Shown here: piece after piece, positions 2,512-14,938 of the stretch
How positions within the stretch are numbered: position 1 is the stretch's first letter
How the letters are laid out: each line of letters opens with the position of its first letter
NCBI GenBank assembly: GCA_947178085.1
Contig: CAMWWS010000025.1
Coordinates: 1-14,938 of the forward strand
From: an uncultured Lachnospiraceae bacterium
GTDB lineage: Bacteria > Bacillota_A > Clostridia > Lachnospirales > Lachnospiraceae
DNA length: 14,938 bases
Direction of reading: 5' to 3'
The notes under the pieces: generated by a model
What the model saw: only the letters and a program-made list of their open reading frames with translations
Databases searched by the model: none
Told to the model about the DNA's origin: nothing
Position numbers and translations under genes: made by a program

Positions 2512-3393
2512 CTACGTCTCTCTATCCCACAAATACTGCAACAGCATAATAACCACAAACAGGAATCCTCCCACACATACCGCCGCTGCCGCCATCTTAT
2601 CGAAGTCCAGTCCTACGAACCAGTTATTGAACAAGTGCTGCAGCAGATAAATATCCTGCTCCGGATATGAACCCGCAACCAGATATGCTTCTCTGTATAT
2701 CTTGAAAGAATTCAAAAACGAGAGAATCACTATGGTATAAAGGCTGCCCAGCAGATTAGGAAGCATAATTTTGAAAAAGCATTGTACTCCTGAGGCTCCA
2801 TCCACCCTTGCCGCCTCTATCAACTCATTGGGAATTCCGAGAATTCCTGCCAGCCACAGGACTACCGTATATCCCGTATTTTTCCATACATAGCTGAATA
2901 CCAGCACCCACAAGGCTGCGCTGCTTCCCAGATAGTCCTTATGTATCTCTCCCCAGAGTCCGCTCCATTCGCCTAACCGTGTCAGTAACAGATTTAAGAA
3001 TCCCTGCCTGTAAAAGAACATTTTCCATACGAGGACTATAGTTGCCGTCGGCATGGCAAGCGGGAACAGATACAGTGACTTAATAATTCCCGCGCTTTTT
3101 AATTTACTGAGCGGCAGCGCTATAATAAGTCCGATTACAACTAACAGCGGAATACATACTGCGGTAAACCTGAAAGTATTTTTTACCGCGAGACGGAACG
3201 CCTGATTCGCAAATATGGTCTTATAATTCTGCATTCCTACGAACTGACTCGTCACTGCCGTATTAAATGAGCGTCTGAACACATCCAGAAAAGGAATCAG
3301 TACAAAAATCACTACTCCAATCACGCTTGGAGCCATAAATAAGAAAAATATTCTATTCCGCCATATAGATCGAAATCTTCTTCTCAATCGCAT
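2512..3393 (-). CDS. CUT1-type sugar ABC transporter permease (MalF-like)
   Basis: 293 residues with about six hydrophobic segments (around 17-37, 73-95, 107-125, 157-180, 216-230, 267-287). The binding-protein-dependent permease signature sits at 193-212: EAARVDGA, then a spacing segment, then IMLP. This EAA loop is the docking site for the ATPase, so the protein is one half of the membrane channel of an importer. It has the short N-terminus typical of clostridial MalF homologues rather than the long E. coli form. The ATG at 3393 lies inside copy E; GGAGG 9 nt upstream (3407-3403) is also copy E coding sequence. The 41-nt overlap makes translational coupling with copy E likely. The basic N-terminus (RLRRRFRSIWRNR) is overprinted on the binding protein's KKISIYMAE tail. 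Ends 21 nt before the second permease. Confidence 0.93.
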   Translation of the reverse strand: MRLRRRFRSIWRNRIFFLFMAPSVIGVVIFVLIPFLDVFRRSFNTAVTSQFVGMQNYKTIFANQAFRLAVKNTFRFTAVCIPLLVVIGLIIALPLSKLKSAGIIKSLYLFPLAMPTATIVLVWKMFFYRQGFLNLLLTRLGEWSGLWGEIHKDYLGSSAALWVLVFSYVWKNTGYTVVLWLAGILGIPNELIEAARVDGASGVQCFFKIMLPNLLGSLYTIVILSFLNSFKIYREAYLVAGSYPEQDIYLLQHLFNNWFVGLDFDKMAAAAVCVGGFLFVVIMLLQYLWDRET

Positions 3394-5758
3394 TCACCGC
3401 TTCCTCCAGACTCTTTTCTCCCTGCATATATAGAATTCCTTCATCATATACGACGCTCTCCAGCACAGTATCTTCTATATATGGCGTATCAGCCGTCTCT
3501 ATACATTTTCTAAAATCTGCAATCTGATTTTCATCGGACGGGTAAACAGTCATAATGAGTTCAGTCCCTTCTTCCCCGCCGCTATAATATGCATATCTCT
3601 CCATATTATCAGGAACGATAAAGCTCTCATCAAACGCCTTTTTATTCACTGCAATCCCATCGAACAGATTCGACTGAATTTCCCTGCCAAGGCACAGTTT
3701 TATAAAATTCTCCGCCGCACCGGGATTTTCCGACGCCGCATTTATACCAAGCAGAGTTTTGGCACAAAATACATTGCTGCTCTGCCCGTTCATCACTGTC
3801 CATTTACTGCTCTCAAATCCCTCCGCTTTCTTTATAGAAACTATCTCATCATATGCGCGGGTATTTGGTAAAGCTGCATATGTCAGTTGTATCGTCCCCG
3901 CATAATAGAATATTATGTTATCACCCGTTCTTAAGTAATCGGAATCGTCTAAGGAGTAACCCTGATGCTCCAGCCATGAATCATTACGGCCTTTATATTC
4001 TTCAATTATCTTTTCCGGCAATCCGTCTGTCTGGGCATCATATATTCTCTTAGTCTGCTCTAAGAATTGCGTTATCGACTCTTTATTGAATTCCCCTCTT
4101 TCCGTTGTCCATGCCGGAACACAGGACATTGCAAAATAACGCATTATTCCTCTCTCAGTACAAATATTCAATATATCTTTACCCGGATTATCCTTACGAA
4201 TCTCCTCCATCATATCGGCTATGCTCTCTAAGTCTTTTAACTGCGAGATATATTTATCCGCTCCCGTCATAACCGGAATCTGTATTTCACAAGGGATCAC
4301 ACATACCTTATCATCCTTCTTCATCGCCTGCACGATGCTGTCAAATACCTCTTCCTCACCGCTGAGGCTTTCCAAAATCGTGCTTAAATTAAGCAGCACG
4401 CCTTTTTCAATATATGAATCAATCGGCATATCATCCAATATAAGTACATCAGGGCCTTCTCCCGCCATAATCTTCGTATTCAGCTTCTTCAGGGCATCCT
4501 CTCTTGTAACGGAGCTTCCTTCTTCCATTCCGATTTCGTATTCCACTGCAATACCCGGATAAGCTGTCATAAACATAGCGATTGCCTGACGTATGGTATC
4601 ATTTTCCTTAAGGCTGTAGACTTTCAGCCTGTCGTCAGGAACAGTTGCCATATCAGGGTCATAGACATAGCGAGCCAGCCTGCCGCCGTTATATGAGCTG
4701 ATTTCCGAAAATAAAGCGAGGAACTCATTATCCGCCAGCATAATCATATCTGTCAGCCCGTAAGATGGATTGCTGAATGTACATAGACTGCCGTCAATAA
4801 CCTGCTCCATCGCACTGCCGCCTATTACATGTCGATGTAAGCCCTTTTTACCTGCAATATATATTACTCCTTCTTCCCCCGGGAAAAAGTACATTTGATA
4901 GGTTCCGGTCATGTTATAGGTATTGCCGCCCGGATAGTTTTCCTTTATGAAATCGGCTAAAACTTCATCTTCTACATATTCCTTTTTCTCCATATCATAC
5001 ATAAGCGGCGGCTCGTACCCCGGTACTTCCAGAAACATCAGGTTCCCCTGAAACTGCATAAACACCGGACTCTCACCCTGAACTGTCATATAATATTCGC
5101 AGCTTCCGTCTTCTTTTACCTCATAGAGATCACTGCTGTTTGAAATACTGACAAAAATTCTTCCGTTATCCGTTATTTCGACAGCATGAGGATATTTACT
5201 GTCTCCGCTAACCGGAACATCAATAAGGCTTTCGCTGCCGTCAGGTCTGATAACAAGCAGCTCCGATTTTAAGGTCTGTCCGTAAATATTAAATCCGGCC
5301 TCCTTTTTGTCAGCTGAATCATTATATATAACCGCCGCCGTATTATCCGGGCCAATGGCTATCGATGAAGGAATCTTTCCTTCATTATACAATCGGGTAT
5401 ACCATTCTCTGCCATCCGCTTTCCATGTCGCCCCGTTATCATCTGAAATCAGAAACGTGCTGTAATTATCAGATAAAACAATCCTTCCATCCGATAACAT
5501 ATGCAGCCTGCATCCATACCCGGTGGTTTTGTCTTCAGTGAAATCGGTAACTTCTTCCACATAACGGCCCATAGCTAAATTTACGTCAGTCTGCTGTGAA
5601 TTTGAACCGCTTCCGCCATTGTCCGAAAGCGTTCCGTCTGCGCTGTTTACACCGCCTGTATTACTGTCCCCATTTGTTTTCCCACAACCCGTCAGGCATG
5701 CAAGCAGCATTATCATCGCCAGCAATAGCGCTGACATTCTTTTTATTCTCTTTTTCAA
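3353..5758 (-). CDS. Copy E: propeller-like/solute-binding fusion lipoprotein adjoining the permeases
   Basis: I favour the TTG at 5758 (801 residues): AGGAG ends only 1 nt before the ATG at 5764 but 7 nt before this TTG. Numbering from the ATG, the lipobox is LTGC with Cys27, tether 28-63, beta-rich region ~65-370 with Asp-box SDDNGATW at 107-114, and solute-binding domain ~378-800. Hallmarks are MAGEGPDVLILDDMPIDSYI at 433-452, PCEIQIPVM at 491-499 and MNGQSSNVFC at 658-667. As a lipoprotein it would sit on the outer face of the membrane and hand substrate to the permeases. Its last 13 codons overlap the start of permease 1 in another frame. The codon AAT (Asn791), where all other copies have AGT (Ser), creates the permease ATG. 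Being closest to the permeases and having its own promoter-like block, it is the best candidate for the primary binding protein of the importer. Confidence 0.92.
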   Translation of the reverse strand: MKKRIKRMSALLLAMIMLLACLTGCGKTNGDSNTGGVNSADGTLSDNGGSGSNSQQTDVNLAMGRYVEEVTDFTEDKTTGYGCRLHMLSDGRIVLSDNYSTFLISDDNGATWKADGREWYTRLYNEGKIPSSIAIGPDNTAAVIYNDSADKKEAGFNIYGQTLKSELLVIRPDGSESLIDVPVSGDSKYPHAVEITDNGRIFVSISNSSDLYEVKEDGSCEYYMTVQGESPVFMQFQGNLMFLEVPGYEPPLMYDMEKKEYVEDEVLADFIKENYPGGNTYNMTGTYQMYFFPGEEGVIYIAGKKGLHRHVIGGSAMEQVIDGSLCTFSNPSYGLTDMIMLADNEFLALFSEISSYNGGRLARYVYDPDMATVPDDRLKVYSLKENDTIRQAIAMFMTAYPGIAVEYEIGMEEGSSVTREDALKKLNTKIMAGEGPDVLILDDMPIDSYIEKGVLLNLSTILESLSGEEEVFDSIVQAMKKDDKVCVIPCEIQIPVMTGADKYISQLKDLESIADMMEEIRKDNPGKDILNICTERGIMRYFAMSCVPAWTTERGEFNKESITQFLEQTKRIYDAQTDGLPEKIIEEYKGRNDSWLEHQGYSLDDSDYLRTGDNIIFYYAGTIQLTYAALPNTRAYDEIVSIKKAEGFESSKWTVMNGQSSNVFCAKTLLGINAASENPGAAENFIKLCLGREIQSNLFDGIAVNKKAFDESFIVPDNMERYAYYSGGEEGTELIMTVYPSDENQIADFRKCIETADTPYIEDTVLESVVYDEGILYMQGEKSLEEAVNAIEKKISIYMAE
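3403..3407 (-). promoter_or_regulatory. Ribosome binding site for permease 1 inside copy E
   Basis: GGAGG on the minus strand, 9 nt before the ATG at 3393, within the codons for LEEAV of copy E. Similar purine-rich runs exist in the other copies, but only copy E follows with an ATG; the others have GTG at that point. Confidence 0.6.
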
Positions 5759-5765
5759 GACCATG

Positions 5766-5770
5766 CTCCT
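5766..5770 (-). promoter_or_regulatory. Ribosome binding site pointing to a TTG start for copy E
   Basis: AGGAG on the minus strand is followed by C and then ATG (1-nt spacing, too short) and by TTG at 5758 with 7-nt spacing. The two starts differ by only two residues. Confidence 0.55.
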
Positions 5771-5791
5771 TTCCCAGCCTGCGAGTTTGCT

Positions 5792-5807
5792 TGATAACTT
5801 TATATCA
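5792..5807. promoter_or_regulatory. TGATA-N6-TATCA inverted repeat over the -10 region (copy E promoter)
   Basis: TGATATAAAGTTATCA on the minus strand has 5-bp perfect arms and overlaps the TATAAA hexamer, in the same position relative to the direct repeats as at 13192-13207. Confidence 0.3.
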
Positions 5808-5862
5808 CATTAGTCTCTAAAAAATCTCTAATTTACTTTAAGTGCGCATATACGGCAATATC

Positions 5863-8283
5863 TTACTCCGCTAAATAAATTGAAATCTTCTTCTCAATCG
5901 CACTCACCGCATCCTCCAAGCTCTGCGCTCCCTGCATATACAAAATTCCTTCTTCATATACGACATTCTCCAACACGGTGTTTTCTATATATGGCGTATC
6001 AGCTTCCTCTACACATTTCCTTAAATCTGCAATCTGTTCTTCATTAGGAGGATAAACTATAAAATGCAAAGTAAGTCCTTCCTCAGTAGTCATATCAATT
6101 GCGCTATATTCCCCATTCGTCATGGAAGTATCGAAGATAAAGTTCTCTTCAAACGCTGCCTTATTCACTGCAAGCCCATCGTCCAGATTCGACTGATTTT
6201 CCTTTCCAAGGCACACTCTTATAAAATTCTCCGCCTGATCGGTCCTTTTTGATGCGGCATTTATTCCAAGTAAGGTTTTGGCACAAAATACATTGCTGCT
6301 CTGACCATTCATCACTGTCCATTTACTTCCCTCGAAATTCTCCACTTCATTTATCGAAATAATCTCGTTATATCCGCTGACATGTGACAATGCTGTATAT
6401 GCCAGTTGTATTTCTCCCTTGATATATTTATGTGCGTTTTGAAGAGTTCTTAAGTATTTGGTATTTTCTATGGAACCATCCAATTCTCCAATTCCTTTCA
6501 GCCAATTTGCATTTTTTCTTTTATCCTCTTCAATCACTTCTGCCGGCAATCCATCTATCTGTGCATCATATATTCTCTTAGTCTGTTCTAAGAATTGCGC
6601 TATCATTTCACTATCAAGTTCTCCGCTTTCCGTTGTCCACGCCGGGACGCAGGACATTGCAAAATAACGCATGATTCCCTTCTCCGTATAGATATCCAAT
6701 AAAGGCTTACCCGGGTTATCCGCACGCAGCTTCTCCATCATATCCGCTATGCTCTCAAGATCCTCTAACTGCGAGATATATTTTTCCGCTCCTGCCATAA
6801 CCGGAATCTGTATTTCACAAGGTATCGCATAAACTTTATCATCCTTTTTCATTTCCTGCACAATATTGTCAAATAATTCTTCCTCATCATCAAGGCTGTC
6901 CAAAATTGTACTTAAATCCACCAGCAGACCTTTTTCAATATATGAATCAATTGGCATATCATCCAATATCAATACATCAGGACCTTCTCCCGCCATAATT
7001 TTGGTATTCAGTTTCTTCAAAGCGTCCTCCCTTGTAACGGAACTGCCTTTTTCCATACCTATTTCATATTCCACTGCAATACCGGGATAAGCTATCTTAT
7101 ACAATGCAATCGCCTGACGTATGGTATCGTTATCATTTAAGCTGTAAACTTTCAGACTGTCGTCAGGCACAGTTTCTACATCAGGGTCATAGACATAACG
7201 GGCCAGCCTGCCGTCGGTAAATAAAGTCAGGAACGTATTATCTGCCAGCATAGTCATCGCTACTATTTCATAGGACGCAAATGCGTAACGGCTGCCGTCA
7301 ATGATCTGTTCCATCACGCTGCCGCCTATTACATGACGGTACAGGCCTTTTTTACCTGCAATGTATATTACGCCTTCTTCCCCTGCAAAAAAGTACATCT
7401 TATACCTTCTGCCTCCGTCAAAATATGTATTGGGATAGTTTTCCTTTATGAAATCGATTAAAACTTCATCCTCCACATATTCTTTCTTCTCCATATCATA
7501 TATCAACGGCGGCTCATATCCCGGTACACCCAGAAACATCAGATTCCCCTGAAACTGCATAAGCTCCGGACTCTCACCTTGAACTGTCATAAAATAATCG
7601 CAGCTTCCGTCTTCTTTTACTTCATAAAGATCGCTGCTTCCTGAAACACTGACAAAAATCCTACCGTTATCCGCTATTTCAACATAATTATGCGGATATA
7701 TATCATCTTTGCTCTTCGGAATATCAACAATATTTTCGGGTCCGTCAGGTCTGATAACAAGCAATTTCGGCTCATATGCAAATCCACCCTTATCTTTATC
7801 ATATGAACCGGAATTATATATAGCCGCTACCGTATTATCTGCGCCGATGGCTATTTCCGAAGCAAACGTTCCTTCACTATAGCATCTGTCATACCATTCA
7901 CTGTCATCCTCCCTCCACGTCTCCCCATTATCATCCGAAATCAGGCTCGGTTGATATATATTAGATAAAACAATCCTGCCATCCGATAACCTGCACAACT
8001 TGTTTGCAGACCAACTGACTCTGTCGCCTAAATCGGTAATTTCTTCCACATAACGTCCCATAGCCGGTTTTCCGTCCGCCTGCTGTGAGTCAGAACCGCT
8101 TCCGCTGCTATTCTCCAAAAGCTCACCAGTTGTCCCATTTGCTCCGTTTATACCGCCTGCACCATCGTCCGAATTTGTTTTCCCGCATCCAATCAGACAT
8201 GTTAATAGCATCACCGTCGCCAACAATAACGCTGACATCCTTCTTGTTTTCATTCTTTGCGTTTTCATTCCTTGTATTTTCAT
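5863..8283 (-). CDS. Copy D: propeller-like/solute-binding fusion lipoprotein with repeated N-terminus
   Basis: I place the start at the ATG at 8283 (806 residues). An upstream in-frame GTG at 8289 lies only 3 nt from the AGGGGG ribosome site, whereas the ATG is 9 nt away. The first 15 codons are three 15-bp repeats each beginning ATGAAAA, giving MKIQG, MKTQR and MKTRR before the usual MSALLL. The signal peptide ends in lipobox LIGC (Cys33). The Asp-box is SDDNGETW. The solute-binding half keeps MAGEGPDVLILDDMPIDSYI, PCEIQIPVM and MNGQSSNVFC, but several otherwise shared details differ: IYTEKG for ICTEKG, SRYAFASYE for SLCTFSNPSYE, terminal IYLAE for IYMAE. It is among the more divergent copies in the regions expected to face ligand. 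About 100 nt containing a promoter-like block separate it from copy E, so E can be expressed independently. Confidence 0.91.
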   Translation of the reverse strand: MKIQGMKTQRMKTRRMSALLLATVMLLTCLIGCGKTNSDDGAGGINGANGTTGELLENSSGSGSDSQQADGKPAMGRYVEEITDLGDRVSWSANKLCRLSDGRIVLSNIYQPSLISDDNGETWREDDSEWYDRCYSEGTFASEIAIGADNTVAAIYNSGSYDKDKGGFAYEPKLLVIRPDGPENIVDIPKSKDDIYPHNYVEIADNGRIFVSVSGSSDLYEVKEDGSCDYFMTVQGESPELMQFQGNLMFLGVPGYEPPLIYDMEKKEYVEDEVLIDFIKENYPNTYFDGGRRYKMYFFAGEEGVIYIAGKKGLYRHVIGGSVMEQIIDGSRYAFASYEIVAMTMLADNTFLTLFTDGRLARYVYDPDVETVPDDSLKVYSLNDNDTIRQAIALYKIAYPGIAVEYEIGMEKGSSVTREDALKKLNTKIMAGEGPDVLILDDMPIDSYIEKGLLVDLSTILDSLDDEEELFDNIVQEMKKDDKVYAIPCEIQIPVMAGAEKYISQLEDLESIADMMEKLRADNPGKPLLDIYTEKGIMRYFAMSCVPAWTTESGELDSEMIAQFLEQTKRIYDAQIDGLPAEVIEEDKRKNANWLKGIGELDGSIENTKYLRTLQNAHKYIKGEIQLAYTALSHVSGYNEIISINEVENFEGSKWTVMNGQSSNVFCAKTLLGINAASKRTDQAENFIRVCLGKENQSNLDDGLAVNKAAFEENFIFDTSMTNGEYSAIDMTTEEGLTLHFIVYPPNEEQIADLRKCVEEADTPYIENTVLENVVYEEGILYMQGAQSLEDAVSAIEKKISIYLAE
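8239..8283 (-). repeat. Three 15-bp tandem repeats at the start of copy D
   Basis: Read on the minus strand the units are ATGAAAATACAAGGA, ATGAAAACGCAAAGA and ATGAAAACAAGAAGG, directly followed by ATGTCAGCG. Each unit adds an in-frame Met and two to three basic or polar residues. Only the first ATG has a ribosome site at normal distance. Copies B and C have a single such unit, so this is a local slippage-type expansion of the positively charged n-region. Confidence 0.75.
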
Positions 8284-8292
8284 TTTCACTAT

Positions 8293-8298
8293 CCCCCT
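8293..8298 (-). promoter_or_regulatory. Ribosome binding site deciding the start of copy D
   Basis: AGGGGG on the minus strand lies 9 nt before the ATG at 8283 and only 3 nt before the in-frame GTG at 8289, which favours the ATG. Confidence 0.6.
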
Positions 8299-8334
8299 CA
8301 GATGATTTTGTGTAATGAAATTACTGTAAACACC

Positions 8335-10737
8335 CTATTCCGCCATATAAATCGAAATCTTCTTCTCAATCGCACTAACCGCTTCATCAAGACTCTGTAC
8401 TCCCTGCATATATAGGATTCCTTCATCATATACGGCATATTCCAGCACGGTGTCTTCTATATATGGCGTTTCTGCTGCCTCTACACATTTCCGCAAATCC
8501 GCGATCTGCTCTTCATTTGACTGATAAATATTTAAAGTGATTTCCATCCCTTCATCATTAGGCCTACTTACCCATCCATACCTACCGTTCTCATTAACCC
8601 AGCTTCCGGGAATAAAGTTCCCGTCAAACGCCGCCTTATTCACGGCAAGCCCATAGAACAAATTCGACTGGTTTTCCTTTCCAAGGCACAGCCTTAAGAA
8701 GTTTTCCGCCAAGCTTGAATTTTCCGATATTGCATTTATTCCGAATAAAGTTTTGGCGCAAAATACATTGCTGCTCTGCCCATTCATTACCGCCCATTTG
8801 CTTCCCTCGAATCCCTCCACTTTATTTACGGAAACCGTCTCATCATATGCGCGGGTGCTTGCCAAAGCTGAATATGTCAATTGTGTCGAACCCACGATAT
8901 AATCTATTCCGTTATCAATCGTTCTTAAGATTGCAGCATCGTCCATAAATTCGCCCCAATACTCCAGCCACAGTTCATTTGATGTTTTATAACTTTCAAT
9001 TATTTCCTCCGGTAGTCCGTCTGTCTGCGCATCATATATTCTCTTAGTCTGCTCTAAGAATTGCATTATCGCTCCTCTATCGAGTTCCCCGCTTTCCGTT
9101 GTCCACGCGGGAACACAGGACATTGCAAAATAACGCATGATTCCTTTCTCCGTACATATTCCTAATAAATCTTTTCCAGGATTATCCCTTCGCATCTCCT
9201 CCATCATATCCGCTATGCTCTCAAGATCTTTTATCTGCGAAATATATTTTTCCGCTCCCATCATCACCGGTATCTGGATTTCACAGGGCATTGCATAAAC
9301 CTTATCATCCTTTTTCATTGCCTGCACGATGCTGTCAAATACTTCCTCCTCACCGCTTAAGCTCCCCAGAATTGTACTTAAATCCATCAGCATGCCTTTT
9401 TCAATATATGAGTCAATCGGCATATCATCCAATATCAGTACATCAGGACCTTCTCCCGCCATAATCTTCGTATTCAGTTTCTTCAAGGCATCTTCTCTCG
9501 TAACGGAACTTCCTTCTTCAATGCCGACTTCATATTCCACTGCGGCATTGGGATAAGCTGTCATAAACAGGGCAACTGCCTGACGTATGGTATCATTTTC
9601 CTTAAGACTGTAAACTTTTAACTTGTCAGCAGGCACAGTAGCCACATCAGGGTCATAGACATAACGGACCAGTCTGCCGTCGGTAAATAAAGTCAGGAAC
9701 ACATTATCTTCAAGCATAGCCATAGCTACTATTTCATAAGAAGGATTACTGAATGTGCAAAGGCTGCCGTCGATAATCTGCTCCATCGCGTCGCCGCCTA
9801 TTGCATGCCGGTGCAGACCTTTTTTACCTGCAATATATATCACTCCTTCTTCACCTGTGAAAAAGTACATTTGATATGTTCTGCTTCCGTCATAAAAATT
9901 ATCATTCAAATTACCACTCGAATAATTTTCCTTTAAAAAATCGATTAAAACTTCATCCTCCACATATTCTTTCTTTTCCATATCATAGATTAGAAGCTGA
10001 TTATAGTCATGACCATTCAAAAACATCAGGTTCCCCTGAAACTTCATAATCTCCGGACTCTCGCCTTGAACTGTCATAAAATATTCGCAGCTTCCGTCTT
10101 CCTTTACCTCATAAATATCACTGCTTCCCGTAATACTTACAAAAATCCTTCCGCTATCCGCTATTTCGACATTATACGGATTTTTATCATTTCCGCTCAC
10201 CGGAATATCTATAAGGTGTTCCGTGCCGTCAGGTCTGATTACAGTAAATCTCTTAACTTGGGTATATTGACCCGTTTCTTCGTCATATGAACCGTCATCA
10301 TATATAACCGCTGCCGTATTATCTGTGCCAATAGCTATCTGTGAAGCGTACTTTCCTTCTCCGAACATTCTGGCATGCCATTCCGCATCGTCTTCCTCCC
10401 ATGTCGCTCCGTTATCATCCGAAACCAGAAACGTTCTGTATATATCAGATAAAACAACCTGTCCATTCGACAGCCTGCACAATCTGTTTCCATACCAACT
10501 GACTCTGTCACCCAATTCGGTGACTTCTTCCACATAACGGCCCATAGCCGAATTTACGCCTGCCTGCTGTAAGTCTGTACCGCCTTCGACGTCATTCCCG
10601 GAAAGCGCCGCATCTGTGCCACCTGCTCCGTTTACGGTGCCCGTACTATCGTCTGAATTTGTTTTCCCGCAGCCCGTAAGACATGTTAATAACATAATCA
10701 TTACCAGTAATAACGCCGACATTTTTCTTGTATTCAT
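8335..10737 (-). CDS. Copy C: propeller-like/solute-binding fusion lipoprotein
   Basis: 800 residues from an ATG that has GGGAGG about 11 nt upstream. It begins MNTRKMSALLL, the minimal N-terminus of the set, with lipobox LTGC and acylated Cys at residue 23. A Gly/Ser/Asp/Thr-rich tether runs to ~62. The beta-rich region contains the canonical Asp-box SDDNGATW near residue 108 and repeated strand-turn units such as DNTAAVIYDDG and DSGRIFVSITGSSDIYEV. The solute-binding domain starts near LKVYSLKENDTIRQA and ends KISIYMAE. The surface-exposed stretches after RIYDAQTDGLP and after VNKAAFDGNF resemble copy B more than D or E, while its EDALKKLNT motif groups it with D and E, suggesting mosaic ancestry. 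By family it would deliver solute to the downstream permeases. It sits 32 nt after B and about 50 nt before D, with no promoter of its own. Confidence 0.92.
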   Translation of the reverse strand: MNTRKMSALLLVMIMLLTCLTGCGKTNSDDSTGTVNGAGGTDAALSGNDVEGGTDLQQAGVNSAMGRYVEEVTELGDRVSWYGNRLCRLSNGQVVLSDIYRTFLVSDDNGATWEEDDAEWHARMFGEGKYASQIAIGTDNTAAVIYDDGSYDEETGQYTQVKRFTVIRPDGTEHLIDIPVSGNDKNPYNVEIADSGRIFVSITGSSDIYEVKEDGSCEYFMTVQGESPEIMKFQGNLMFLNGHDYNQLLIYDMEKKEYVEDEVLIDFLKENYSSGNLNDNFYDGSRTYQMYFFTGEEGVIYIAGKKGLHRHAIGGDAMEQIIDGSLCTFSNPSYEIVAMAMLEDNVFLTLFTDGRLVRYVYDPDVATVPADKLKVYSLKENDTIRQAVALFMTAYPNAAVEYEVGIEEGSSVTREDALKKLNTKIMAGEGPDVLILDDMPIDSYIEKGMLMDLSTILGSLSGEEEVFDSIVQAMKKDDKVYAMPCEIQIPVMMGAEKYISQIKDLESIADMMEEMRRDNPGKDLLGICTEKGIMRYFAMSCVPAWTTESGELDRGAIMQFLEQTKRIYDAQTDGLPEEIIESYKTSNELWLEYWGEFMDDAAILRTIDNGIDYIVGSTQLTYSALASTRAYDETVSVNKVEGFEGSKWAVMNGQSSNVFCAKTLFGINAISENSSLAENFLRLCLGKENQSNLFYGLAVNKAAFDGNFIPGSWVNENGRYGWVSRPNDEGMEITLNIYQSNEEQIADLRKCVEAAETPYIEDTVLEYAVYDEGILYMQGVQSLDEAVSAIEKKISIYMAE

Positions 10738-10769
10738 TATTTGCTATTCCTCCCATAATATATTTCACC

Positions 10770-13127
10770 CTATTCCGCCATATAAATCGCAATCTTATCT
10801 TCAATAGCACTCACCGCTTCCTCAAGGCTTTGTGCTCCCTGCATATACAGAATGCCTTCCTCATATACGGCATTCTCCAGCATGGTATCTTCTATATATG
10901 GCGTATCAGCCGCCTCTATGCATTTCCTTAAATCTGCAATCTGTTCTTCATTTGACTGATAAACATTTATAGTAAATTCAACCCCTTCATCATTGCTTAT
11001 ACTTACCCATGCGTATCTCTTATTCTCATCCATCCAGTCATAGGCGGTGAAATTCTCATCAAACGCAGCCTTATTCACAGCAAGTCCATAGTTCAGATAT
11101 GACTGATTTTCCCTGCCAAGGCACAGTCTGATAAAATCCGCCGCCGAATCGGCATTTTCTGATGCTGCATTTATCCCAAGTAAAGTTTTGGCACAAAATA
11201 CATTGCTGCTCTGACCATTCATCATAGTCCATTTGCTATCCTCGAATCCTTCCACTTTATTAATGGAAACCATACCGTCATATGCACGGACGCTTGGCAA
11301 AGCTGAATATGTAAGTTGTATCGTTCCTCCGACATAATCTATTCCATTATCATCCGTTCTTAATAATGCGGAATCATCTTTGCATTCGCCCTGAATCTCC
11401 AGCCATAATTCATTTATCACTTTATAATGTTCAATGGTTTCTTCCGGCAGTCCGTCCGTCTGCGCATCATATATTCTCTTGGTCTGCTCTAAGAATTCTG
11501 CTATTACTTCTCTGTCTAGCTCCCCGTTGTCCGTTGTCCATGCCGGAACACAGGACATAGCAAAATAACGCATTATTCCTTTCTCCGTACAGATGTTAAG
11601 TAAATCTTTACCCTGATTATCATTACGCAGCTCCTCCATCACATCCGCTGTGCTCTTAAGGTCTTTTATCTGCGAGATATATTTTTCCCCTCCCATCATA
11701 ACCGGAATCTGAATTTCACAAGGCATTGCATATACCTTATCACCCTTTTTCATTGCCTGTACGATGTTCTCAAATACTACTTCTTCACCGCTTAAACCGC
11801 CTAGGATTGTACCTAAATCCATCAACATGCTTTTTTCAATATATGAGTCAATCGGCATGTCATCCAATATCAATACATCAGGACCTTCTCCCGCCATAAT
11901 CTTGGTATTCAGGCTCTTTATCGCATCCTCTCTTGTAACGGAACCGCCTTCTTCCATGCCGATTTCATATTCCACTGCAATATCATTATGAGCTGACAGA
12001 AACAGGGCGATTGCCATACGTATGGTATCATTTTCCTTAAGGCTGTAAACCTTAAGTTTATTGTCAGGTACAGTCGGCACATTAGGGTCATAGGCATAAC
12101 GGGTCAGTTTCCCGCTGTTGAACACAGTCAGGAACTCATCATCAGGCAGCATAACCATCCCTGTTATTTCGTGGGAAGGATTACTTAATGAACAAAGGCT
12201 GCCGTCAATAACCTGCTCCATCACGCTGCCGCCTATTACATGCCTGTACAGACCTTTTTTACCTACAATGTACATTACCCCTTTTTCTCCCGGGAAAAAG
12301 TACATTTTATATACTTCACTTCCGTTATAATCATTGCCGTCCGGATAATTTTCCTTTATGAAACCGGCTAAAACTTCATCCTCCACATATTCTTTCTTCT
12401 CGATATCATATATCAACGGCGACTCATATTCTAATCCATCCAGAAACATCAGGTTCCCCTGAAACTGCATAAGCTCAGGACTTTCACCCTGAGCTGTCAT
12501 AAAATATTCGCAACTTCCGTCTTCTTTTATCTCATAAATATCACTGCTTCTTAAAGCACTGAAAAAAATCCTTCCGTTATCGGCTATTCCGATATTATGT
12601 GGATATTTACCGTCTTTAGTATGTGGAACATCATAAAGATTTTCAGTACCGTCAGATCTGGTAACAAGCATGCTCGGTTTAGCTATATACTTATCTTCCT
12701 TTTCGTAATAAAAACCATCATCATATATAACCACTACCGTATTATCTGCGCCGACGGCCATCTTTGAAGCAAGGCTTTCGTCTTCTTCCCATGTCGCACC
12801 ATTATCATGCGAAATCAGAAATGGCTTATAGTTATCAGATATAATCAATCTTCCATCTGATAATTTATATATTTTGTTTCCGTATCCGGTAATTCTGTCA
12901 GACAAATCGGTAACTTCTTCCATATAACGACCCATAGCGCCGGTTCCGTCCGCATGCTGTGAGTAAGAATCTCTTTCGCCGGCATTCTCCGAAAGAACAC
13001 CTCCTGCATCAGTTGCACCGTTTATACTGCCAGCACTATCTCCCGCATTTGTTTTACCGCCACCCGCCAGAAATGTGAATAACATTATCAAAGCAAGCAT
13101 CAATGCCGACATTCTTTTTGTTTTCAT
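10770..13127 (-). CDS. Copy B: propeller-like/solute-binding fusion protein lacking the lipobox cysteine
   Basis: A 785-residue intact frame with an ATG start preceded by AGGGGG. Layout: signal peptide 1-22, low-complexity linker ~26-60, beta-rich region ~64-360 with an Asp-box at 106-113 (SHDNGATW, first Asp replaced by His), then a family-1 solute-binding domain to the C-terminus (KVYSLKENDTIRMAI, MAGEGPDVLILDDMPIDSYI). Two oddities stand out. The lipobox reads LAGG where other copies read LTGC or LIGC: residue 23 is GGC (13061-13059), one base from TGC, so no lipid can be attached there. In addition 11 residues present in copies C-E just after the Asp-box are missing (near 12776). The rest is uninterrupted, so it is either secreted, held by an uncleaved signal helix, or recently inactivated as a surface lipoprotein. 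The gap to copy C is 32 nt with no promoter, implying co-transcription. Confidence 0.9.
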   Translation of the reverse strand: MKTKRMSALMLALIMLFTFLAGGGKTNAGDSAGSINGATDAGGVLSENAGERDSYSQHADGTGAMGRYMEEVTDLSDRITGYGNKIYKLSDGRLIISDNYKPFLISHDNGATWEEDESLASKMAVGADNTVVVIYDDGFYYEKEDKYIAKPSMLVTRSDGTENLYDVPHTKDGKYPHNIGIADNGRIFFSALRSSDIYEIKEDGSCEYFMTAQGESPELMQFQGNLMFLDGLEYESPLIYDIEKKEYVEDEVLAGFIKENYPDGNDYNGSEVYKMYFFPGEKGVMYIVGKKGLYRHVIGGSVMEQVIDGSLCSLSNPSHEITGMVMLPDDEFLTVFNSGKLTRYAYDPNVPTVPDNKLKVYSLKENDTIRMAIALFLSAHNDIAVEYEIGMEEGGSVTREDAIKSLNTKIMAGEGPDVLILDDMPIDSYIEKSMLMDLGTILGGLSGEEVVFENIVQAMKKGDKVYAMPCEIQIPVMMGGEKYISQIKDLKSTADVMEELRNDNQGKDLLNICTEKGIMRYFAMSCVPAWTTDNGELDREVIAEFLEQTKRIYDAQTDGLPEETIEHYKVINELWLEIQGECKDDSALLRTDDNGIDYVGGTIQLTYSALPSVRAYDGMVSINKVEGFEDSKWTMMNGQSSNVFCAKTLLGINAASENADSAADFIRLCLGRENQSYLNYGLAVNKAAFDENFTAYDWMDENKRYAWVSISNDEGVEFTINVYQSNEEQIADLRKCIEAADTPYIEDTMLENAVYEEGILYMQGAQSLEEAVSAIEDKIAIYMAE

Positions 13128-13268
13128 TTTTCGCTTTCCCCCTAAATGCTTTTTACGAAATACAATAGTCTGCCCTTTATAAATGCATACTTGATAATGT
13201 TATATCACACTAATCTCTAAAGAATCTCTAAAAACAATTTTAAATAGTACATAATCAGAAACTATACT
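13128..13268 (-). promoter_or_regulatory. Intergenic leader between copies A and B with a promoter-like block
   Basis: A 141-nt gap, the longest inside the array. Read on the minus strand it holds two direct repeats, TTTAGAGATT at 13232-13223 and TTTAGAGATT at 13221-13212, exactly 11 bp apart. Seven bases later comes a TATAAC -10-like hexamer (13204-13199). No recognisable TTGACA lies 16-18 bp upstream; the second repeat fills that space. This is the usual look of a promoter driven by an OmpR/PhoB-family regulator, which is an inference. A leader of about 65 nt would follow, ending in an AGGGGG ribosome site before the ATG of copy B. A 42-nt stretch (13190-13231) matches 5790-5831 upstream of copy E at 37 of 42 positions. 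No terminator hairpin is seen after copy A. Confidence 0.55.
13192..13207. promoter_or_regulatory. TGATA-N6-TATCA inverted repeat over the -10 region (copy B promoter)
   Basis: A 16-bp inverted repeat, TGATATAACATTATCA on the minus strand, with perfect 5-bp arms and a 6-bp centre, covers the putative -10 hexamer. The arms are kept in the equivalent place upstream of copy E although the centre differs. It could be an operator for a dimeric repressor, or just AT-rich symmetry around a -10 box. Confidence 0.3.
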
Positions 13269-14938
13269 TTATTCCGCCATATAAATCGAAATCTTCTTCT
13301 CAATCGCACTCACCGCTTCCTCTAGGCTCAGCTCTCCCTGCATGTACAGTATTCCCGCCTCATATACGGTGTTCTCCAGTACGGTATCTTCTATATACGG
13401 CGTATCAGCTGCCTCTATGCATTTCCTCAAATCTGCAATCTGTTCTTCATTCGACTGGTAAATTATAAAGCTTGAATCTATTCCATCTTCAGAAATTATG
13501 CTAGTAGAAATATAACCCCCATCCTCATCCAGCCAGTTTTCATTGACGATAAAGCTTTCCTCAAATGCCGCTTTATTTACTGCAAATCCGCTAAACAGAT
13601 TTGACTGGTTTTCCTTACCGAGGCATAATCTTATAAAACCCTCAGCCAAATCGGTATTTTTTGATGCTGCATTAATTCCGAGAAGGGTACGGGTACAAAA
13701 TACATTGCTGCTCTGTCCATTCATCACTGTCCATTTACTTTCCTCATAACCTTTTACTCTGTTTATGGAAAGCATCTCATCATATGCCATGGCATTATTC
13801 AATGCTGCGTATTCCATTTGTATTGATCCACCGGCATAGTCTGTTGCATTTGAACCGGTTCTTAAGTACTTGGAATCCTCTCTCAATTTACCGATTATTC
13901 CTACCCAATATTCGTTTACCCTTTTGTAGCTTTCAACCTTTTCAGCCGGAAGCCCCTCCATCTGCGCATCATATATTCTCTTAGACTGTATCAGGAATTC
14001 CTCTATTGCCTTACTGTCAAGTTCTCCGCCTTCCGTAATCCATGCAGGAACGCAGGTCATTGCAAAATAACGCATTATTCCTTTCTCTGTGCAAATATTC
14101 AGCAAATCTTTACCCGGATTTTCTTTTCGCAGTTCTTCCATTACGTCCGCTATACTCTCAAGGTCTTTTAACTGCGATATATATTTTTCCGCGCCCATCA
14201 TAACAGGAATCTGGATTTCGCAAGGCATTGCGTAAATCTTATCTCCTTTTTTCATAGCCTGAGCAATATTTGTAAAAATTTCATCTTCACCGCTTAATCC
14301 ACCTAATACAGCGCTCAAATCCATCATCAGACCTTTTTCAATATATGAATCAAGCGGCATATCATCCAATATCAATATATCAGGACCTTCTCCTGCCATA
14401 ATCCTTGTATTCAGACTCTTTATAGCATCCTCCCTCGTAACAGAGCTTCCTTCTTCAATACCGATTTCATACTCTACCGCGACATCCGGATAAGCCGACT
14501 GATACATGGAGCTTGCCTGACGTATGGTATCATTTTCCTCAAGACTGTATACCTTCAGTCTGTAAATGGGTACAGTAGCTACATCCGGATCATAAACGTA
14601 ACGGATCAGCTTTCCGCCGCTGAACATAGTTAAGAACTCATTATTATCCAGCATGATCATTCCGGATATCTCATACGCAGGATTATTAAATGTACAAAGG
14701 CTGCCGTCAATAATCTGTTCCATCGCACTTCCGCCTATTACGTGCCGGTGCAGCCCCTTTTTCCCGGCAATATACAGAACCCCTTCTTCTCCTGCGAAAA
14801 AGTACATTTGATAAGATTCGCTTCCGGTATAAACATTACCCTCCGGATAGTTTTCCTTAATAAAATCTGCTAAAACATCATCCTCCACATACTCTTTCTT
14901 TTCGATATCATAGATTAGCGGGTGTTTATAGCCGCGAC
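13269..14938 (-). CDS. Copy A: family-1 solute-binding lipoprotein with propeller-like N-terminus (5' end cut by window edge)
   Basis: Partial gene: the frame is open to the right edge (first complete codon CGC at 14936-14934), leaving 555 visible residues and the TAA stop. By alignment with copies B-E about 240 N-terminal residues are missing, so the signal peptide, lipobox and Asp-box cannot be judged. The GTG at 14888 is an internal Val (EYVEDDVL), not a start. The visible part begins in the beta-rich region (PLIYDIEKKEYV, YIAGKKGLHRHVIGG) and runs through the solute-binding domain with the family hallmarks LKVYSLEENDTIRQ, MAGEGPDILILDDMPLDSYI, PCEIQIPVM and MNGQSSNVFC. It carries EDAIKSLNT, shared with copy B, where C, D and E have EDALKKLNT. 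Role by family: extracellular capture of a solute, probably a glycan or oligosaccharide, for a CUT1-type ABC importer. A gap of 141 nt with a promoter-like block separates it from copy B. Substrate unknown. Confidence 0.9.
   Translation of the reverse strand, partial: RGYKHPLIYDIEKKEYVEDDVLADFIKENYPEGNVYTGSESYQMYFFAGEEGVLYIAGKKGLHRHVIGGSAMEQIIDGSLCTFNNPAYEISGMIMLDNNEFLTMFSGGKLIRYVYDPDVATVPIYRLKVYSLEENDTIRQASSMYQSAYPDVAVEYEIGIEEGSSVTREDAIKSLNTRIMAGEGPDILILDDMPLDSYIEKGLMMDLSAVLGGLSGEDEIFTNIAQAMKKGDKIYAMPCEIQIPVMMGAEKYISQLKDLESIADVMEELRKENPGKDLLNICTEKGIMRYFAMTCVPAWITEGGELDSKAIEEFLIQSKRIYDAQMEGLPAEKVESYKRVNEYWVGIIGKLREDSKYLRTGSNATDYAGGSIQMEYAALNNAMAYDEMLSINRVKGYEESKWTVMNGQSSNVFCTRTLLGINAASKNTDLAEGFIRLCLGKENQSNLFSGFAVNKAAFEESFIVNENWLDEDGGYISTSIISEDGIDSSFIIYQSNEEQIADLRKCIEAADTPYIEDTVLENTVYEAGILYMQGELSLEEAVSAIEKKISIYMAE

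Follow-up and report, generated by a model that had tools for sequence, protein, structure and literature searches.

A putative CUT1-like importer with several receptors and an efflux-type adaptor in Lachnospiraceae

In the genome of an uncultured Lachnospiraceae bacterium, at least five paralogous genes for solute-binding proteins (SBPs) precede a single pair of genes for MalF/MalG-like permeases, and the pair is followed by a gene for an HlyD/MacA-type membrane-fusion protein. The genes are contained in a stretch of 14,938 nucleotides (GenBank assembly GCA_947178085.1, contig CAMWWS010000025.1), referred to as the window. The locus raises the question of whether several receptors share one channel, and of what a membrane-fusion protein contributes beside it. 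Comparison of sequences with those of related genomes favoured, with a probability of roughly 0.6, a CUT1-like importer with several receptors and an envelope adaptor of the efflux type, which would occur in Lachnospiraceae and have relatives in other Clostridia.

The genes follow one another on the minus strand in the operon-like order SBP5-SBP4-SBP3-SBP2-SBP1-MalF-MalG-HlyD (Table 1). The SBP frames as listed are separated, from SBP5 to SBP1, by 141, 32, 45 and 98 nt, and purine-rich stretches resembling ribosome-binding sites were found upstream of the complete copies. The 41-nt overlap between SBP1 and MalF has the identical size in four related loci (L002, L003, L038 and L039; L, G and P numbers denote loci, genomes and proteins of the comparison). 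Identity to copy 1 is 68-72% for copies 2-5, and of their final 60 nt, 50-55 agree with those of copy 1. Five tandem paralogues of about 800 aa are not the result of chance. The original prediction, made from the window sequence, had counted at least five full-length SBPs in front of the permeases; five lie in tandem ahead of a single MalF/MalG pair, four of them complete and the fifth truncated, and the paralogy, order and open frames described were borne out. The source contig probably stops at the right window edge too, because the longest contig listed for two window proteins is 14,960 bases. Scans for promoters and terminators gave results near the shuffled expectation.

The SBPs consist of a separate N-terminal propeller-like domain of about 320 residues and a C-terminal sugar-type SBP domain. 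In copy 1, a signal/lipobox segment with linker (residues 1-62) is followed by the propeller-like domain (approximately 63-376) and the SBP domain (377-803). The assignment as a propeller was based on secondary structure and a profile search: the N-terminal domain of copy 1 is all-beta in the structure model, and the family profile of the domain matches WD40/PQQ propellers; 10 of 25 family members match BNR/Asp-box weakly. The matches listed from fold searches with the full SBP model cover the SBP part, and the similarity to the solved chain of Clostridium thermocellum CbpC (PDB 7x0o, 420 residues) is confined to the SBP domain. A Pfam SBP cut-off (PF01547/PF13416) was exceeded by four of the five copies, copy 4 scoring below it (PF01547, 19.5 vs 26 bits). 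In the lipobox of copy 4, Gly replaces Cys (AGGGK), the close orthologue P0020 having TGCGK. Copy 4 may not be anchored but released; alternatively, the substitution may stem from an error in the sequence.

The ratio of receptor genes to channel genes was determined in 50 draft genomes from the genus-level group of a relative, G003, with split matches merged by hand. An SBP1 match was obtained in at least 46 genomes, one of them weak, and a module-type MalG in 45, with one or two in each. The totals were at least 129 SBP genes, at least two of which were contig-edge pieces, against 56 MalG genes. With the weak match excluded, and among the matches listed, SBP genes outnumbered MalG genes in 34 genomes, equalled them in 11 and were fewer in one, both being absent from four. 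Several SBPs per permease pair are normal in this group, and a dedicated module-type permease for each copy was not seen in the relatives, since SBP genes are in excess in those 34 genomes. Neighbourhoods were fetched for 83 loci because they hold such an SBP, a set that takes in the greater part of the places found. Permease genes were present in 46 of them, 22 with one SBP, 15 with two, seven with three and two with four; the five SBPs of the window exceed this range. Judged by equal contig sizes listed in the protein database, five close SBPs, as many as in the window (P0002, P0009, P0010, P0021 and P0023), and the HlyD protein P0123 probably share a contig of 82,827 bases, and four SBPs (P0007, P0008, P0025 and P0028) one of 21,948 bases. 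Shared use of the permeases, as originally predicted, was thus strengthened with regard to dedicated permeases, although ordinary CUT1 permeases could serve some copies. In one locus (L052:8600-12884) a single SBP gene was found between MalF and MalG and not ahead of them. SBP genes of some draft genomes (L053 and L075) appear split into two frames, by decay or sequence errors.

A tree built from 45 close SBPs, among them 42 different ones, paired copy 1 with P0001/P0002 and each of the other copies with the orthologues given in Table 1. Because each copy has its own orthologue, the permease-adjacent slot is seen to hold differing paralogues, namely the copy 1 type in the window, the copy 5 type in L002 and the copy 3 type in L003. 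Copy number and order across related strains had been proposed as a check; the copy number and the paralogue next to the permeases were found to vary. Synonymous divergence (dS) was 0.24 between copy 5 and its L002 counterpart and 0.32 between copy 3 and that of L003, compared to 0.40-0.56 for the MalF, MalG and HlyD genes in these two strain pairs. Copy 1 and the orphan L001 gave a dS of 0.66, with no matching permease pair for comparison. Copy 3 and L003 copy 1 (L003:10007-12394) form a mosaic pair, 97-98% identical in mid-gene and 71-91% elsewhere, which suggests recombination between receptor genes; copy 5 and L002 copy 1 are 91-95% identical along the whole gene. The lower dS of the SBPs and the mosaic copy 3 suggest, from few comparisons, that receptor genes were exchanged around a stable channel. 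This pattern supports a pool of exchangeable receptors that use the permeases in common.

Alternatively, the copies could all bind one ligand and raise capture capacity, by dosage or as a surface layer, with no diversification of ligands. Such redundancy would agree with the long invariant blocks kept in the SBP domain across the copies, and with purifying selection in the four window paralogue pairs computed (ratio of nonsynonymous to synonymous divergence, dN/dS, 0.17-0.30). However, dS in these pairs was 0.67-1.24, and the paralogues are therefore old as well as maintained. They have separate orthologues and vary at clustered sites, e.g. residues 83-202, 583-642 and 703-742, which makes pure redundancy fairly unlikely.

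Both window permeases carry EAA loops of the import type, and the strict EAA pattern was observed in 25 of 36 MalF and 26 of 36 MalG among sampled relatives. All window matches to named NCBIfam equivalogs (MalE, UgpA/E and MalF/G) were below the cut-off, and the claim to be one of those named transporters is therefore weaker. No ATPase was found inside the modules, and no Walker-A frame within any of 66 modules. OB_MalK genes were present in three of three related genomes. Neighbour genes were sampled from 66 loci with 195 neighbours; a random, length-limited draw of 124, minus four SBP genes, left 120, and 31 further genes, cut or containing X, were omitted. Four of the 120 were ABC_tran genes. 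In one locus a MalK-type ATPase gene (L156:15342-16478), about 1.4 kb upstream of the module SBP gene on the same strand, is a candidate energy partner.

The last gene of the window encodes the proposed adaptor. Its structure model (mean pLDDT 82.7, pTM 0.42) contains a transmembrane helix, an 88-residue helix, a return hairpin and lipoyl/barrel domains, so that the transmembrane anchor, split lipoyl/barrel domains and helical hairpin of the membrane-fusion fold are all predicted. The fold matches were MacA, EmrA, AcrA-type proteins and Spr0693, and the profile search was concordant. TM-scores were low, 0.22-0.39 by query length, probably because the long hairpin shifts, and the score for TIGR01730 was below the cut-off (63.6 of 94.9 bits). 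An HlyD gene was found in all 46 permease loci of the genus-level group. In two of these loci (L054 and L066) it appears divided into two frames, by decay or sequence errors.

The linkage extends beyond this group. At the family level, 70 of 150 genomes had a match. Among the best 30 loci of these, MalG lies directly before HlyD in 26 and the flank ends at the gene in two, while L140 and L144 have no MalG before HlyD. Larger regions, fetched for 20 of the loci with MalG, all contained MalF, MalG, HlyD and then a further protein of one family. An SBP relative precedes MalF in 18 of these regions; in L164 it lies beyond two-component genes, and in the L163 region none was found. Nine of the downstream proteins were scanned, including L203 from the phylum-level set. 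Eight matched the MacB periplasmic-core domain, four of them above the cut-off, and L150 had no such match; no ATPase domain was found in any scanned companion. At the class level (291 genomes, best 30 loci), MalG precedes HlyD in 22 loci, one of them in G003, and the MacB-like protein follows HlyD in 21 of the 22; two more loci have the order HlyD-MacB-like-MalF. At the phylum level, MalG adjoins HlyD in 3 of 28 new loci, and a Walker-A gene is near 11 of the other 25.

In the genus group to which the window belongs, the modules have no MacB-like protein next to them, except for one module of G040, and no MacB-type ATPase/permease partner is present in the window. That HlyD is kept where the MacB-like protein is missing argues for the MalFG/SBP complex as its partner. 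HlyD as a leftover efflux gene was rejected, since linkage was 46 of 46 in the genus-level group and MalG adjoined HlyD in so few of the phylum-level loci; more distant membrane-fusion proteins sit elsewhere. No description of a module joining HlyD, an adaptor or a MacB-type protein to a CUT1-type importer was found in the open-licence literature, and among the titles listed none dealt with this module. Separately, an ordinary HlyD/ABC-ATPase/FtsX (MacAB-like) cassette lies beyond the module histidine kinase in L243, L244, L246 and L247, and in L245 without a flagged ATPase.

An OmpR/PhoB-like response regulator and a histidine kinase adjoin at least 22 of the 46 permease loci and at least 17 of the 37 loci with an SBP and no module permeases, both counts being lower bounds because of limited flanks. 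Such a two-component system was present in 12 of the 20 family-level regions. This proximity hints at inducible control or at sensing. In the latter case, the propeller-SBPs would present ligands to the two-component system, with MalFG/HlyD serving as a flux sensor or signal-removal pump and the copies broadening the range of signals. The frequency of the kinase and regulator genes, the type of regulator and the small number of carbohydrate enzymes among the neighbour matches listed would fit such a role. It is nevertheless unlikely as the main function, as eight of the 20 family-level regions are without the system, the window permeases retain import-type EAA loops, and the window sequence stops short of any two-component genes. 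Export or detoxification is very unlikely. Here HlyD would act as in MacAB-type efflux, and MalFG would have been taken over to expel or remove molecules that are toxic to the envelope and captured by the SBPs. The fold matches to MacA, EmrA and Spr0693 and the MacB_PCD-like protein in other Clostridia would suit this reading, but neither the MacB-like protein nor any other part of the modules yielded an ATPase domain, the genus-group modules apart from that of G040 lack this protein, and SBP-dependent type I permeases are importers in every known case.

Several observations weigh against a multi-receptor importer. Module permease genes are missing from 37 of the 83 loci, several of them at contig ends, and 17 of these 37 adjoin two-component genes (e.g. 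among L072-L077 and L098-L110). With so many loci of this kind, some SBPs may act without the channel, e.g. as sensors, or via the ordinary CUT1 permeases that are present in such genomes (e.g. L060, L065 and L244). Copy 4 appears to be without a lipid anchor, and the dS comparison covers two SBP pairs, of which one is mosaic. Outside this module the HlyD fold is familiar from exporters, and HlyD may pair with a different protein of the cell, as weak MacB-like matches occur elsewhere in 39 of the 50 genomes, some beside two-component genes; those inspected were ordinary permeases of about 406 aa in cassettes with their own HlyD. Finally, carbohydrate enzymes are few among the neighbour genes (among the matches listed, 25 of 113 families).

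Table 1. Features of the module in the window; positions count from the first nucleotide.
Feature	Position	Strand	Remarks
SBP copy 5	13269-14936	minus	5' end cut by window edge, 555 aa remain; orthologues L002 copy 1, P0018
SBP copy 4	10770-13127	minus	785 aa; without lipobox Cys; 11-aa loop absent from propeller domain; orthologue P0020
SBP copy 3	8335-10737	minus	800 aa; orthologues P0013, L003 copy 1
SBP copy 2	5863-8289	minus	808 aa as listed, GTG start; orthologue P0023
SBP copy 1, permease-adjacent	3353-5764	minus	803 aa
Propeller-like domain of SBP copy 1, as cut for profile	4613-5578	minus	residues 63-384
Overlap of SBP copy 1 3' end and MalF start	3353-3393	minus	41 nt
MalF-like permease	2512-3393	minus	BPD_transp_1, EAA loop
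MalG-like permease	1630-2490	minus	BPD_transp_1, EAA loop
HlyD/MacA-type membrane-fusion (periplasmic adaptor) protein	229-1626	minus	465 aa; N-terminal transmembrane helix, long coiled-coil hairpin

With respect to the ligand, the modelled fold likeness of the SBP points to sugars. The possibility of a glycan-utilisation locus was examined: the only glycosyl hydrolases among the matches listed for the 120 neighbours were two GH31 genes, both in L148; a GH3 gene is near the permease-less SBP locus L108. Glycerophosphodiester phosphodiesterase (9 of 120) and pyruvate phosphate dikinase (7 of 120) recurred, which probably reflects shared synteny of one subclade. In L018:2773-6425, a phosphodiesterase gene of this kind and a dikinase-like gene are located 3' of HlyD, and their families recur near related loci. 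Glycans as ligands are a guess. The original picture was that of a plain CUT1 glycan importer; it left out the N-terminal propeller domain, the HlyD-type protein and, beyond the window, the two-component system of the relatives.

The multi-receptor importer would function as follows. The propeller-SBPs, mostly lipid-anchored as judged by their lipoboxes, would capture ligands at the cell surface and alternate in docking on one common MalF/MalG channel, as the gene ratio and linkage suggest. A MalK/MsmX-type ATPase encoded elsewhere would power the channel. The HlyD/MacA-like protein, anchored in the membrane and reaching outward, may link the receptors to the channel as a scaffold or conduit, and would be a conserved part of the importer and no leftover from efflux. 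The OmpR-type two-component system adjoining the operon in relatives, outside the window, probably controls it. The receptor pool appears to have been duplicated, diversified, recombined and differentially kept, so that one channel would serve strain-specific receptor sets, presumably for different ligands. The copies may also form a joint capture layer at the surface. More tentatively, the module may represent a so far unnamed hybrid ABC (ATP-binding cassette) system, in which a MalF/MalG import channel, interchangeable propeller-SBPs and a MacA-like conduit or scaffold work in uptake, joined in some other Clostridia by an ATPase-less MacB-like protein.

MalEFG/MsmEFG-type CUT1 importers combine an SBP domain with a pair of EAA-loop permeases of the BPD_transp_1 type. 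The window module has both and probably draws, like them, on a shared ATPase; it differs in the propeller domain, in the number of SBP genes to each permease pair, which can reach five or more, in its consistent HlyD neighbour and in the OmpR-type regulator nearby in relatives. With MacAB/YknXYZ/Spr0693-type exporters it shares the long-hairpin membrane-fusion protein and, in other Clostridia, a MacB_PCD-like companion; unlike them, it is without a MacB-type ATPase and is linked to importer permeases and SBPs. The Opp system of Borrelia burgdorferi has five binding proteins, OppA1-OppA5, three of them tandemly encoded, together with two pairs of permeases and a pair of ATPases dedicated to the system (PMC5736914). 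There too, several diversified binding proteins serve few permeases and the number of paralogues differs between species, but Opp is a peptide transporter and not CUT1-like, and the part of the article available mentions neither a propeller domain nor a membrane-fusion protein (PMC5736914). The cello-oligosaccharide ABC transporter of Anaerocellum bescii is, according to the accessible part of its description, a sugar-type importer with multiple SBPs (Athe_0597/0598) at one locus; it has two copies against five in the window, and that part is silent on a propeller domain and HlyD (PMC12838199).

One channel with many receptors is known in a few systems; in the present case the arrangement is repeated within a genus-level group of Lachnospiraceae. 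Because SBP counts vary from genome to genome, receptor choice is directly testable. If the hybrid system is real, a membrane-fusion protein works in import and an importer acquires new receptors through the exchange of their genes. So far, membrane-fusion proteins are familiar from export systems; the steady association of one with an import operon would give the family an additional role, and its combination with an ATPase-less MacB-like companion in some other Clostridia would show how envelope adaptors combine with importers.
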